Assembly: GCA_026874595.1 (NCBI GenBank)
Contig: CM049306.1
Location: 22,121,019 to 22,185,018, forward strand
Direction of reading: 5' to 3'
Source: Sipunculus nudus
Taxonomy: Eukaryota > Annelida > Sipuncula > Golfingiida > Sipunculidae
Length of the DNA: 64,000 nt
The position numbers were made by a program, and so were the translations under genes. The notes under the pieces were generated by a model, which saw only the letters and a list, made by a program, of their open reading frames with translations, was not told where the DNA came from and ran no database searches. The number at the start of each line of letters is the position of its first letter. Position 1 is the first letter of the stretch. This document shows, piece by piece, positions 50,230 to 55,838 of this stretch.

Positions 50230-50525
50230 TAAATGGTGAATTTTTCATCAACGTGAGGGGAATTTGATCACTGAGGAAAAAGATAGGCTTGACTGATGAA
50301 GTAACATAAACTTAAAAAAAATGCAATGCCAAAATCAAAGCCAACCATTCTTTTTCAATAGTGCAGTAGTTTTTTGGTTTGCATTAAACTTTCTTGAAAA
50401 AAACAACAAATTGGATGATCTTTGCCATCACTGCCTTCTTGTAACAACACAGCACCAGCAGCAGAATCACTAGCATCTACAGTTAACTGTAAAGGTACAG
50501 AAAAGTCTGAAGCTGCTAAAACTGG
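50230..50525 (-). pseudogene. Gypsy RNase H, truncated
   Basis: Minus-strand coding traces (DAS-type aspartate block near 50480, TIEKEWLALILA near 50360, SDQ-PLTLM near 50260) match the RNase H at 12681-13131. Stops and frame changes occur throughout, and the match ends near 50230, before the LADCLSR terminus, so the 3' end of the element has been lost. Confidence 0.7.
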
Positions 50526-51530
50526 TCAACTTTGCAGAATCGCTTTCAAATTCTGAAATGCATTTTCACACTGAACATTCCATACAAACTTTTGTTTCTT
50601 CTTTAACAAATAAGTCAAAGGTTCAGCTGCAGCAGAAACATTAGGACAAAACTTCCTGTAGTATCCAACCATACCAAGAAAACGCATTATTTGCTTTTTG
50701 TTTTCTGGTCTAGGAAATGCAGAAATAGCACTTATTTTAGCATCAACAGGTTTAACTTGACCCTGCCCTACAATACGACCCAAAAATGTTACTTGTGCAT
50801 GACAAAACTCATATTTGACTAGGTTGACGGTCAGACATGCTTAGGTTTCGCTGAGTCCTTTCGAAGAGGTCGCTAAGATTTTGCAGATGTTTCTCCAATG
50901 TGTCGATGTACACGATAAAGTCAACAATATATGCGTCGCAGCCCTGAATATCCTTGACAACCATATGGATGAGGCGCTGGAACGTGGCTGGCGAGTTCTT
51001 TATACCAAACGTCATAACTTTATACTTGTACAGTCCTTGCGGCGTCACAAATGCGGACACTTCTTTCGCTCGTTCTGTCAGCAGAACTTGCCAGAATCCT
51101 TTTAGCAAGTAAAACTTGTAGACATATCTGGGGCTACCGACTCTATCAATACAATCATCGATCCTCGGAATCGGGAACGTGTCAGTCCTGGTGACAGTGT
51201 TTCGTTTTTCAATAATCTGTGCACATACGGTAAATTCCATCAGGCTTTGGCACAAGAATACATGGTGAACTCCAGTTAATGTAACTAGGTACAATAAAAT
51301 CATTGTCCAGCAAATATTGAACCTCATCTTGTAGATACTTTTGCTTTTCTGGATTCAGTCTATAAGGATGCTGCTTGACTGCGCTTGCCTCGCCAACATG
51401 GACGTCATGGCACAATATGTTAGTTCGCGTTGGAATGTCACTAAACAAATGTTCATAATTCTGAAGCAGGTTCTTGAGGCCTTGTTGTTGTTTGAGGTAA
51501 GGTGTAACAGTTTGGCATCCAGGTTGTTAA
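50526..51530 (-). pseudogene. Gypsy reverse transcriptase, catalytic box mutated
   Basis: Frames 51448-51209, 51327-50809 and 50783-50526 on the minus strand give in order NYEHLFSDIPTRTN, VKQHPYRLNPEKQ, INWSSPCILVPKPDG, DTFPIPRIDD, KFYLLKGFWQVLL (the first catalytic Asp of FDL has become Tyr), TPQGLYKYKVMTFG and DAYIVDFIVYID, where the second catalytic box reads YIVD, not YIDD (about 50915-50938). Then FLGMVGYYRKFCPN. It is very similar to the RT at 11766-12680, so both come from one family. Loss of two catalytic Asp residues plus at least two frameshifts makes it inactive. Confidence 0.9.
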
Positions 51531-51639
51531 GAACGTCTGAGTTTTTTAGTCGTACTGTTCCACACTGAATATCTGCATCACACTTACACTCAGTATCTAC
51601 TTTAAATGGGTCAGGGTCTGTTTACAGCAGTAACATTAT

Positions 51640-52860
51640 GTACAACATCTAATGTGCTATTTCTGTCATAATATGGTTTCAACATGTTAACATGGCACAG
51701 TTGTTTTTTTTCTTACGCCTATCTGGTGTTAACAGTATTGTCAACAATGTAAGGACCAAAATACCTAACTTGCAGAGGTTTGCCAGGGATGAGTAGTAAG
51801 AAAAGGACCTTTTCACCAGGCTCAAACGTCCACATACAGTGTGCTTGTCATACTTTGTTTTCATTTTCTTTGTGCAGATGTGAGATTGGACTTTGCAATC
51901 TCACAAGCATTGTGTAGTTTAGTGCGAAAGTCTGAGAGACATTCTGCAATAAATTAAGAGAATCAGAATTTTCACACAAGAGTTTCTCTTAAGACAGTTT
52001 TAATGGAGCTCGAACGGAGTGTCCGAAAACAAGTTCAAAGGACTGAAACCCAAGGACTCTTAAAATGATTGTCTGACAGGAAACAGCAATGGGTGGATTC
52101 CTTCATCCCAGTCTTTCTGTGTGTCATAACAATAGGTTCTAATCATGTTTTTTAATGCCTGGTGAAAACGCTCGAGGGCGCCCTGACTTTAAGGATGGTA
52201 CGGCGAAGAGCTGTATTGTTTTATGGGCAGCTCTAGCATAATTTGCTGGAATAAGTCAGACATAAAATCAGACCCATGGTCAGACTGGATGGATTTTGTA
52301 ATCAAAAAGTTGTAAAATAAAGGTCAGAGCCTTGACAACACTTTGGCTTTAATTTTGCGCAATGGTATTGCCTCAGGGAACCTGGTAGATGTGCACATAA
52401 TTGTCAGCAAGTATTCATGTCCAGATTTTGTTTTGAGCAGTGGTCCAACACAATCAACAATAATCCTACTAAATGGTTCCTCATTGGGCCTAATTGGGGT
52501 TTTAGGAGGGTACTGATTTGGCTGGCCTACCAACTTGCATGTGTGACATGATTTACAATATTATACATCTTTCCTGGGGTTAGGCCAATAGAAGTGTGTA
52601 CTAACTTTCTGATATGTTTTATTTATACCTAAATGGCCAGACAAAGGAGCCTCATGTGCAATGCTTAGAATTTCATTGCGATAGCTTTTGGGCATCATTA
52701 TTTGATGGTTGATGGCCCACTCATCATCAGCGCATAAATCAGGTGGTTGCCATTCACGCATAAGCACTCCATTTTTAACATAGAAACAAACTGGGTTCTG
52801 TGATAGTTCATCTTGAGAACTGCCCAGGGAAACAAACATGAAATATCAGGGTCCTTATGC
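51640..52860 (-). pseudogene. Gypsy integrase (H2C2 finger, DDE core, GPY/F), broken
   Basis: On the minus strand: HEAPLSGHLGINKTYQKV and FYWPNPRKDV (H2C2 finger; frame 52839-52561), then after a stop the CHTC-type half, LVGQPNQYPP and FSRIIVDCVGPLLKTKSG (first catalytic Asp; frame 52533-52324), TSTRFPEAIPL, SDHGSDFMSD (second Asp) near 52280, QGALERFHQALK (catalytic Glu) near 52180, and a GPY/F module (FEPGEKVLF, RYFGPYIVDN) near 51830-51730. Integrase inserts the cDNA into the host genome. All three DDE residues are readable, but stops and frameshifts break the frame. Its place upstream of RT is the key structural feature of the element. Confidence 0.85.
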
Positions 52861-53046
52861 TGTTCCGCGAAAAGTTCTGACCTTGAAAATGCTGTTTCCT
52901 GTACGGACGAGTCGTTAGACTCCCAGAGTATTATTATTTGGACCATTACCCTCATGTGTGTTTTTCTGGCCATAGATATAATTACAGCACATGAAGGATA
53001 CAAACCAGGAACTTCCTGATTTTCAGGATCCTTGATTAAGTCTTGA

Positions 53047-53903: not shown

Positions 53904-54899
53904 GCAAGTTTCTACGAGTCAGATATAAGATTACCTTGCTTTTTGCAGTAATTACAGATTTTCTTTGAAAATGACTGGTCTTTTTTGGATTCAGACACAG
54001 TGGACGTGGACTGAGGTGTAGCAATGGACTTTGTTGAACTATCAGGACTACTAGTACTGGGTGACTGCGCTTTAAACTTCTTTTGACCAAACTGATTTAC
54101 AATCTTTTTTGTGAACGACTTTTTAGATTTGCTGGTAAAGGACATCTTGTGTGTTAATGAGTAAGCATCAGCTTATGGAGCAGCAATGTCAAGTGTTTCA
54201 GGGCTTTTCTCATCAAGAAACGTTTTAACATCTGCGTTAATGCAGAGCTTAAATTCTTCAAGCAAAATCAACTTGCGCTTTTCCCGATTTCTAAAATTCT
54301 GGCGATAAGCCTCAGGAACTAACTCATAACCTGTTAGGATTAACCGTTAACCTTGTCACAGTCAGCAGCGGGTTATACGCTCTGTATAAATTTTCTATGG
54401 CCTTGCCAGTCAATACGATTTGTAATAGCATTGTCCAATTTTCCTTAGGCAATTTAAATAATCAGCTACCTTCTCAAAGTGTAAGAAATATTTATCAACC
54501 TCTTTTTCTTGAAAAAGTGGGACAAGTCTGCTGTTTTTAATAACATCAAAACTGTGAGTTGGGGCAGCACGTAGAAAATGTTCTAGCTTAAGTCGTTCTA
54601 ACTCAAGTCGTTTTAACTCAATTCTTTTTTTTTTCTTTTTCTAGTCTTTCTCATTCCAAACTTTCATGTTTTTCCCTTTCTTTTAATGCTAGCTAACTTT
54701 TTTTAAATTCTTACTGCATAGCAAGGCTGTCATTTTTATGTTTCTACGTGATTTTAGCAATAATATCAGGCTTCTCAATAGCTTTTTTCACACCAAGCCC
54801 TAAGTGTTGTCCAAAACGCAACAACTGTTCCTTTGTCAAATGATCAAGTTGATCAGGGTCTGGATATTCAACAAATGCCTCAGGTTTGAAGTCTGCCAT
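53904..54899 (-). pseudogene. Gypsy gag, degraded
   Basis: Begins at an ATG at 54899 with MADFKPEAFVEYPDPDQLDH followed by LTKEQLLRFGQHLG, a start of the kind seen in Gmr1-type gypsy gags. The middle (about 54720-54160) is broken by many stops. The C-terminal frame 54145-53912 is Ser/Lys/Thr-rich and ends in a degenerate CCHC knuckle: CNYCKKQGN keeps the first two Cys and the Gly, but the His and last Cys are replaced. Gag forms the particle and the knuckle binds RNA. Confidence 0.7.
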
Positions 54900-55042
54900 G
54901 TAAAGATATTAAAACAATAACGAAAAACCACCAAGATAAATCTTGTAAAATATATTGTAAACAATGTGTAATCTTGTAAACAATGTATTGTAAACAACGT
55001 GTCTAGGTCAAGGCCTAATAAATTTTCAATACTACTAATTAA

Positions 55043-55059
55043 GCATCCCGGACCAGCCA
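55043..55059 (-). other. Candidate primer binding site
   Basis: Minus strand TGGCTGGTCCGGGATGC begins nine bases after the LTR end. It starts with TGG as expected for pairing with a tRNA CCA end; I could not match it to a specific tRNA, and nine bases is a longer gap than usual. Confidence 0.35.
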
Positions 55060-55068
55060 ACAATTTTA

Positions 55069-55838
55069 CATTACGGAACCTAATAACAGCAGATCACGTA
55101 AACGTGACCAGCACAGATTACAGAGATAAAGAGATAAACATGTTACAGAGATAAAAAAACAGATTATATAACACTAGGCAGCGTGAAATGTCTAGGGGAA
55201 TGAATGAAGAAGTCAGTGGTTTTTTTTTGTAAACAAACAATTATAATTTATTCTTAAAACAATCCTAACATTACAATACACTAAATCAATACAATTACAC
55301 AGTTTAACAAATAAAATGTACAGTACCAGAGTGTCCGGATTCTAGGCTTGATATCTGGATACCACCACTGTCACAGCTTAACAAGAGTAGTTTAAATCCA
55401 AATATCCACGTAAAATGTAATGATCCAATGGCAACTGGAGACAATCCGTATTAAATCAGTATTTAGTCCGTTAAATATCTGACACCAATGCAATTATCGG
55501 TAAGGTCCCAAAAGTGACTCACACTCTTCCATGTCCGCTGGAATTTTTGTCTCTCTCCCCTGGTTCTAAACACAGCCGCTATTTATAACTTCTCATCCGA
55601 AAATACTAGAAATGGAAAACTTCAAAGAACAATACACACGTTACAGGAACAGACCTGAAACATCTAGAAAAAATAACGCTGTGTTTCTACACTTCAGACC
55701 CCACACGCGAGCTAGCCAATCTCACACGTCCCCCTTGACAAAGAACTTTGCCTGTCTAACAGACACATGTATCACTTCGGGTACAATAAAACAGGGCCTG
55801 TCTTACACGAATCAGAATGTCAACAGACACATGTAACA
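55069..55838 (-). mobile_element. 5' LTR of the minus-strand gypsy element
   Basis: On the minus strand it begins TGTTACATGTGTCTG and ends GGTTCCGTAATG, where relatives end GTAACA. Conserved parts are a TATAAATA box (55581-55588) before GCGGCTGTGTTTAGAACC, the AATAAA signal (55247-55252) and the CACTGACTTCTTCATTCATT block. A duplicated GACACATGTA(T/A)CACT...GTACAATAAAACAG string near 55760 and 55823 makes the outer boundary uncertain; by comparison with the LTR at 32508 it could extend to about 55870. ORF 55612-55836 is a chance frame. Confidence 0.8.

Follow-up and report, generated by a model that had tools for sequence, protein, structure and literature searches.

An integrase-first gypsy-type retrotransposon, probably of the Gmr1 lineage and with a SCAN-type Gag, in a likely annelid genome

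Among Ty3/gypsy retrotransposons, the Gmr1 clade is defined by an integrase placed upstream of the reverse transcriptase (RT) (Goodwin and Poulter 2002, cited after PMC6238403 and other papers). The Gmr1 family LGF3 has been placed in the annelid Lamellibrachia luymesi by trees of RT, RNase H and integrase (PMC8220671), and the Gmr1-like elements GyRex4, Gychoro2, GyMaja1 and GyLiva4 are reported from crustaceans (PMC3587641); in that report GyRex4 has no overlap with GyRex5, and the two, judged by likeness to a fish relative, could be one element. A survey of 26 annelid species reports that the Gmr1 clade was not found (PMC8556966), and a mollusc survey has no Gmr1 among the Gypsy clades of its Table 1 (PMC6238403). 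Here we describe an element on the minus strand at positions 50241-55838 of a 64,000-nucleotide stretch of DNA (the window), in which Gag, a protease motif, integrase (H2C2 domain, catalytic core and GPY module), RT and RNase H follow one another in this order. We are confident that it represents a dead copy of a long terminal repeat (LTR) retrotransposon with gypsy-type enzymes, likely of the Gmr1 lineage and residing in a likely annelid genome. The family is new; its kind, Gmr1-type and integrase-first, is already known, in a phylum where it has been reported by tree.

To locate the domains of the window copy, stop-to-stop pieces of the minus strand were scanned singly with Pfam. The coordinates of the matches to PF17921, PF00665, RVT_1 and PF17919 place the integrase 5′ of the RT (Table 1). 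The order proposed in the initial annotation, which was made from the sequence alone, is thereby borne out, with the protease recognized by its DTG motif and its place, and the gypsy-type character that it assigned to the RT and the GPY module agrees with the PF00078 match and with the motif. Taken by itself, the domain order would also suit a Ty1/copia element, in which integrase comes first by rule. However, RT and RNase H of the family match the gypsy-type profiles PF00078 and PF17917/PF17919, and every part of a Ty3/gypsy integrase (H2C2, DDE core, GPY/F) was matched in other copies, by PF17921 and PF00665 in L041 and by PF22938 in L039. A copia-type RT profile was absent from the Pfam matches of the window and the copies, and a copia identity, refuted by these profile matches, retains practically no probability. 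The window copy is a dead gypsy-type element, because its frames are broken, its RNase H is cut short and its 3′ LTR is missing. Its domain pieces are spread over all three frames with stops between them, the likeness of its RNase H to that of other copies ends at 50241, inside the domain, and no 3′ LTR was found for it, so that paired LTRs are lacking there. The outer edge of its 5′ LTR, near 55838, was placed by the TGTTAC motif only, and we take the stretch directly inside this LTR to resemble the 3′ end of tRNA-Pro.

Table 1. Features of the window copy and of other family members in the window
Feature	Position	Strand	Remarks
5′ LTR	55069-55838	-	3′ part matches family; outer part diverged
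Primer-binding-site-like stretch	55045-55063	-	directly inside LTR
Broken Gag, SCAN-type capsid region	54173-54461	-	weak in window, strong in other copies
Gag zinc-knuckle region, degenerate	53912-54172	-	by comparison with L039
Protease	53047-53415	-	DTG motif and position; no Pfam match
Integrase zinc-binding domain (H2C2)	52561-52845	-	PF17921, E 3.4e-14
Integrase catalytic core	52060-52560	-	three open pieces with stops between; PF00665 (rve) in 52189-52323
Integrase C-terminal GPY/F module	51719-51847	-	motif read; PF22938 at same place in L039
RT, gypsy type	50526-51526	-	overlapping broken pieces; PF00078 (RVT_1), E 3.1e-15, in 50809-51354
RNase H, N-terminal part only	50241-50525	-	RT_RNaseH_2, PF17919, E 4.1e-10, in 50355-50525
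Second copy: RT, RNase H, 3′ LTR	11766-14047	+	matches family from RT onward only; LTR 13265-14047
LTR read as solo	31666-32473	+	ATAT both sides, AT-rich surroundings
Partial LTR	32710-33300	+	
LTR read as solo	44808-45599	+	ATAT both sides

Broken and nested repeats crowd the window, and the broken frames and missing 3′ LTR of its copy could suggest that the order is accidental, the integrase end of a canonical gypsy element (RT, RNase H, integrase) preceding an RT that belongs to another copy or to a separate insertion. The other copies argue against such an accident. The genome (1,426,538,692 bases in 153 contigs) was searched with an RT piece, which picked out 6,749 first-look candidates, and every one of the 150 that were scored matched. 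Domain order was counted at the best 30 RT loci and in the 1,500 bases flanking them at either end, and since one of these loci is the window, counts refer to the 29 others. In 22 of 29, an integrase core or zinc domain preceded the RT and lay on its strand; the integrase C-terminal domain was upstream in 24 of 29, and RNase H followed the RT in 28 of 29. Integrase downstream of the RT occurred in none of the 29 within these flanks, and a canonical integrase query taken in frame matched at upstream places only. L007, a canonical element, has an integrase core that starts ~800 bases past the RT palm, therefore a downstream integrase would show within a 1,500-base flank. The two arrangements that the initial annotation had named as fatal to its claim, RNase H followed by integrase and a separately inserted integrase, thus did not occur. 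The full copy with both LTRs that it had called for was recovered as L042, which holds Gag, a protease piece, integrase, RT and RNase H in this order inside a single LTR pair. In L039, positions 4805-5515 form one open frame of 237 amino acids, in which the integrase C-terminal domain (PF22938, E 3.2e-7) is followed by the start of the RT. Used as a query, this frame matched 397 public proteins, and 104 of the 120 listed align across the integrase-RT junction in one piece; the only organism-named protein among the listed matches comes from the octocoral Paramuricea clavata. With two queries, no relatives were confirmed in viral contigs. An accident is already refuted by these data and could be rescued only by an assembly-wide artefact common to unrelated public records, which leaves it a very slight chance. 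The integrase-first order is real and common to many copies.

The family LTR, defined from L042 and L039, is TGTTACAGGTGC...GTTCCGTAACA, measures ~770-810 bp, starts with TGTTAC and mostly ends with GTAACA. In both copies a primer-site-like stretch follows the 5′ LTR and the purine tract ACAGGAGGGG precedes the 3′ LTR, and thus paired LTRs with TG...CA ends, primer site and purine tract, the hallmarks of LTR retrotransposons, occur together in L042 and L039. The LTR pair of L042 is 90% identical, with a Kimura two-parameter distance (K2P) of 0.066 over 728 bases; for L039 only part of the pair was compared, giving a K2P of 0.031 over 400 bases. L039 is flanked by TTGT on both sides, and L042 has no exact flanking repeat. 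Five family LTRs were found in the window, in agreement with the at least five first proposed. The 5′ LTR of the window copy is diverged; in a MAFFT alignment it shares 60-62% identity with the five full LTRs and 71% with the partial one near 32710. The ATAT flanks of the LTR at 31666-32473 carry little weight, as the sequence there is AT-rich.

The relationship of the family to other gypsy elements was examined in an RT tree with two rows from the window, two from other copies, three from canonical-order elements, 11 from integrase-first public proteins and 20 from public matches of unknown order. A length filter had left 11 of 120 junction proteins, 119 of 120 RT matches and three of four canonical elements (L006 was excluded); about every sixth of the 119 RT matches, plus P0001 and P0090, made up the 20. 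Under midpoint rooting, the window family is nested within the integrase-first rows, and the three canonical rows split off at 100/99. The holothurian protein P0090 (Apostichopus japonicus) falls in the same large group as the window family. The canonical gypsy elements of the same genome (L006-L008 with L073; L074) have a gypsy RT as the window family does, and their order is Gag, protease motif and then RT, with RNase H and integrase next in L006-L008. RT palm alignments between L006-L008 and the window family show 27-33% identity. As an observation in its own right, L006, L007 and L008 have long open frames and integrases that are 97-98% identical, therefore this canonical family has likely spread recently.

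Based on literature that derives the SCAN domain from the Gag of Gmr1-like elements (PMC3424704, PMC4592553, PMC3406341, PMC7231272), a SCAN-type Gag counts as independent evidence for Gmr1. In L039, the Gag piece at 6586-7206 has a SCAN match (PF02023, E 7.2e-15) and, at its end, a CCHC-like knuckle that is under the Pfam cut-off. Matches were also strong in L040 (E 3.6e-14) and L051 (E 6.4e-15), and weak in the shorter Gag pieces of L041 (E 0.0013) and L042 (E 0.0015). In a phmmer search against solved structures, the best Gag match was 3lhr, with a chain named zinc finger protein 24, at a weak E of 0.012; we take 3lhr to be a SCAN domain. PF02023 run against the genome produced 2,198 first-look candidates; the 150 that were scored all exceeded the cut-off, and the best 12 loci were fetched. 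All 12 are the Gag of the integrase-first family. Eleven continue into the integrase of the family, the exception being L056, and 10 contain the protease region, the exceptions being L052 (the L039 copy) and L056. According to the alignment coordinates, Gag and integrase share a frame in five of the 12 (L049, L051, L054, L057 and L058), with a frame shift between Gag and integrase in L058 and a stop in the Gag of L057, an arrangement that is compatible with one Gag-Pol frame, short of proof. Unlike the Gag of the window family, neither of the two canonical-order Gags of the same genome (L073 and L074) matches SCAN at E<=1; they match instead Retrotrans_gag (L073, E 0.0039) and PNMA (L074, E 0.0059).

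From the order, the Gag and the RT tree we infer the clade name, and an assignment to Gmr1 appears well supported by the integrase-first order, the SCAN-type Gag and the nesting of the RT among integrase-first public proteins. The window family has in common with the Gmr1 clade an integrase placed ahead of a gypsy-type RT and its RNase H; with a likely annelid host, it is likened to that clade by order and Gag. An integrase-first order that arose independently in a gypsy lineage outside Gmr1 would suit a comparison made without a named Gmr1 sequence, and RT identities that are mostly 50-70% for the 120 public relatives listed. Against such an origin, the family and the integrase-first public rows stand together and are separated, at 100/99, from the canonical gypsy elements that the genome also contains, and Gag carries a SCAN-type domain, which in frogs was found only in Gmr elements according to the available text of PMC4131045. 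We consider an independent origin improbable and prefer membership in the Gmr1 lineage. A SCAN-type Gag is common to the frog Gmr elements and the window family. LGF3 of L. luymesi and the window family are both Gmr1-type and in an annelid, and are likened by description only; Table 1 of PMC8220671 lists Gag-PR-RT-RH-INT for its Gypsy elements, and the order and Gag of LGF3 were not seen in the available text of that paper, whereas both are documented for the window family. The crustacean Gmr1-like elements are likewise gypsy elements of a protostome, from a different phylum. Given LGF3 and the crustacean elements, the window element is not the first to bring Gmr1 into lophotrochozoans.

The initial annotation had considered a mollusc as host. 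Intronless seven-transmembrane receptors were found on large contigs, and one of them, L069, is a serotonin-type (5-HT) receptor whose best named matches among the 120 listed are from annelids (Paralvinella, Capitella, Ridgeia), followed by nemerteans and molluscs. A receptor tree of 28 rows was built with 23 of the 25 listed organism-named matches (P0327 and P0360 were excluded) and four unnamed rows. The host grouped with Paralvinella, Capitella, Ridgeia and the four unnamed rows at 97/94, with the nemerteans next to this group at 92/95. Thirteen mollusc rows grouped at 99/97 and four more formed another group, with the host apart from all 17; Owenia, also an annelid, stood apart on a long branch. 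Since the host joins the annelids in this tree, it is likely an annelid, and a mollusc host is not supported. The mollusc haemocyanin domain PF14830 had no match in the genome, but the control was equally silent. COX1 was rejected as a host marker, as its matches are bacterial-code frames plus a 51-codon fragment: nine of the 11 are on contigs other than the 17 large ones, in frames of 577-578 amino acids that are open under the bacterial code, and the others are one on C123 and the fragment on C5. The C123 protein, the sole one examined, is presumably bacterial. Bacterial-code cytochrome oxidase genes occur on C60, C61, C62, C66, C72, C74, C75, C89 and C123; lying outside the 17 large contigs, they suggest that the assembly likely carries bacteria, perhaps symbionts.

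Several observations weigh against a dead Gmr1-type, integrase-first element in an annelid genome. In the window copy, the SCAN match of Gag at 54173-54346 is weak (E 0.013), the rve match (E 2.1e-4) is under the Pfam cut-off, and the protease piece has no Pfam match at E<=1, so that profile support for it is missing. The L039 copy lacks a protease piece, and no integrase piece was found within the 1,500-base flank in five of the 29 other copies (L010, L012, L014, L027 and L035). The RT tree sets the family against unnamed integrase-first proteins and three canonical rows, with no named Gmr1, Mag or CsRn1 rows among them, and host placement rests on one gene.

Under the Gmr1-type reading, working copies would produce one Gag-Pol polyprotein, which the protease would cut, releasing an integrase encoded upstream of RT-RNase H. 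SCAN-type capsids would package the RNA, a tRNA would prime reverse transcription, and the integrase would insert the DNA, leaving a 4-base target repeat. The 3′ end of the window copy was likely lost afterwards, and the copy cannot move.

Other repeats are present in the window. Direct repeats at 48276-49976 and 55853-56586, 86-88% alike, closely flank the element. They were rejected as its LTRs: TG...CA ends were not seen in them, and when the window was compared with L039 and L042 they did not match the LTRs of either copy. Inside the left repeat, a ~960-base insertion (48377-49339) has several inverted repeats, 78-97% complementary, at and near its ends and looks like a foldback element or one of the miniature inverted-repeat transposable element type. 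Tandem arrays lie at 2413-3676 (period ~179 bases) and 40253-41290, and the satellite of the former is also present within the 3′ LTR of L042. A remnant of a long interspersed nuclear element at 36141-39777 matches RVT_1 (E 7e-19), contains a piece like a GDSL esterase whose match (PF13472, E 1.6e-6) is under the cut-off, and matches an endonuclease weakly.

With many copies, LTRs, a purine tract and Gag landmarks, the window family documents the integrase-first order in a likely annelid, whereas the earlier annelid report rested, in its available text, on trees (PMC8220671). The SCAN-type Gag in a protostome is the less expected part of the result, one that a specialist may not anticipate, and it bears on the origin of the vertebrate SCAN domain. 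In the available literature on Gmr1 in molluscs and bivalves and on SCAN in annelids, we found no SCAN-type Gag from an annelid; in the available text of the annelid element papers PMC8220671 and PMC8556966, "scan" means scanning, not the domain. For the Pacific oyster genome, SCAN is named among the enriched domains (PMC10546077), and we read these as probably Gmr1-type Gag. On balance, we lean slightly towards the view that the SCAN-type capsid is an old trait, one that predates vertebrates and defines integrase-first gypsy elements throughout the animals, that invertebrate "SCAN domain genes" such as those of the oyster would be Gmr1-type Gag, and that the vertebrate SCAN family would have its source in a capsid of which annelids retain very large numbers to this day. 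SCAN matches in invertebrate proteomes should be treated with caution, as they are likely transposon Gag.

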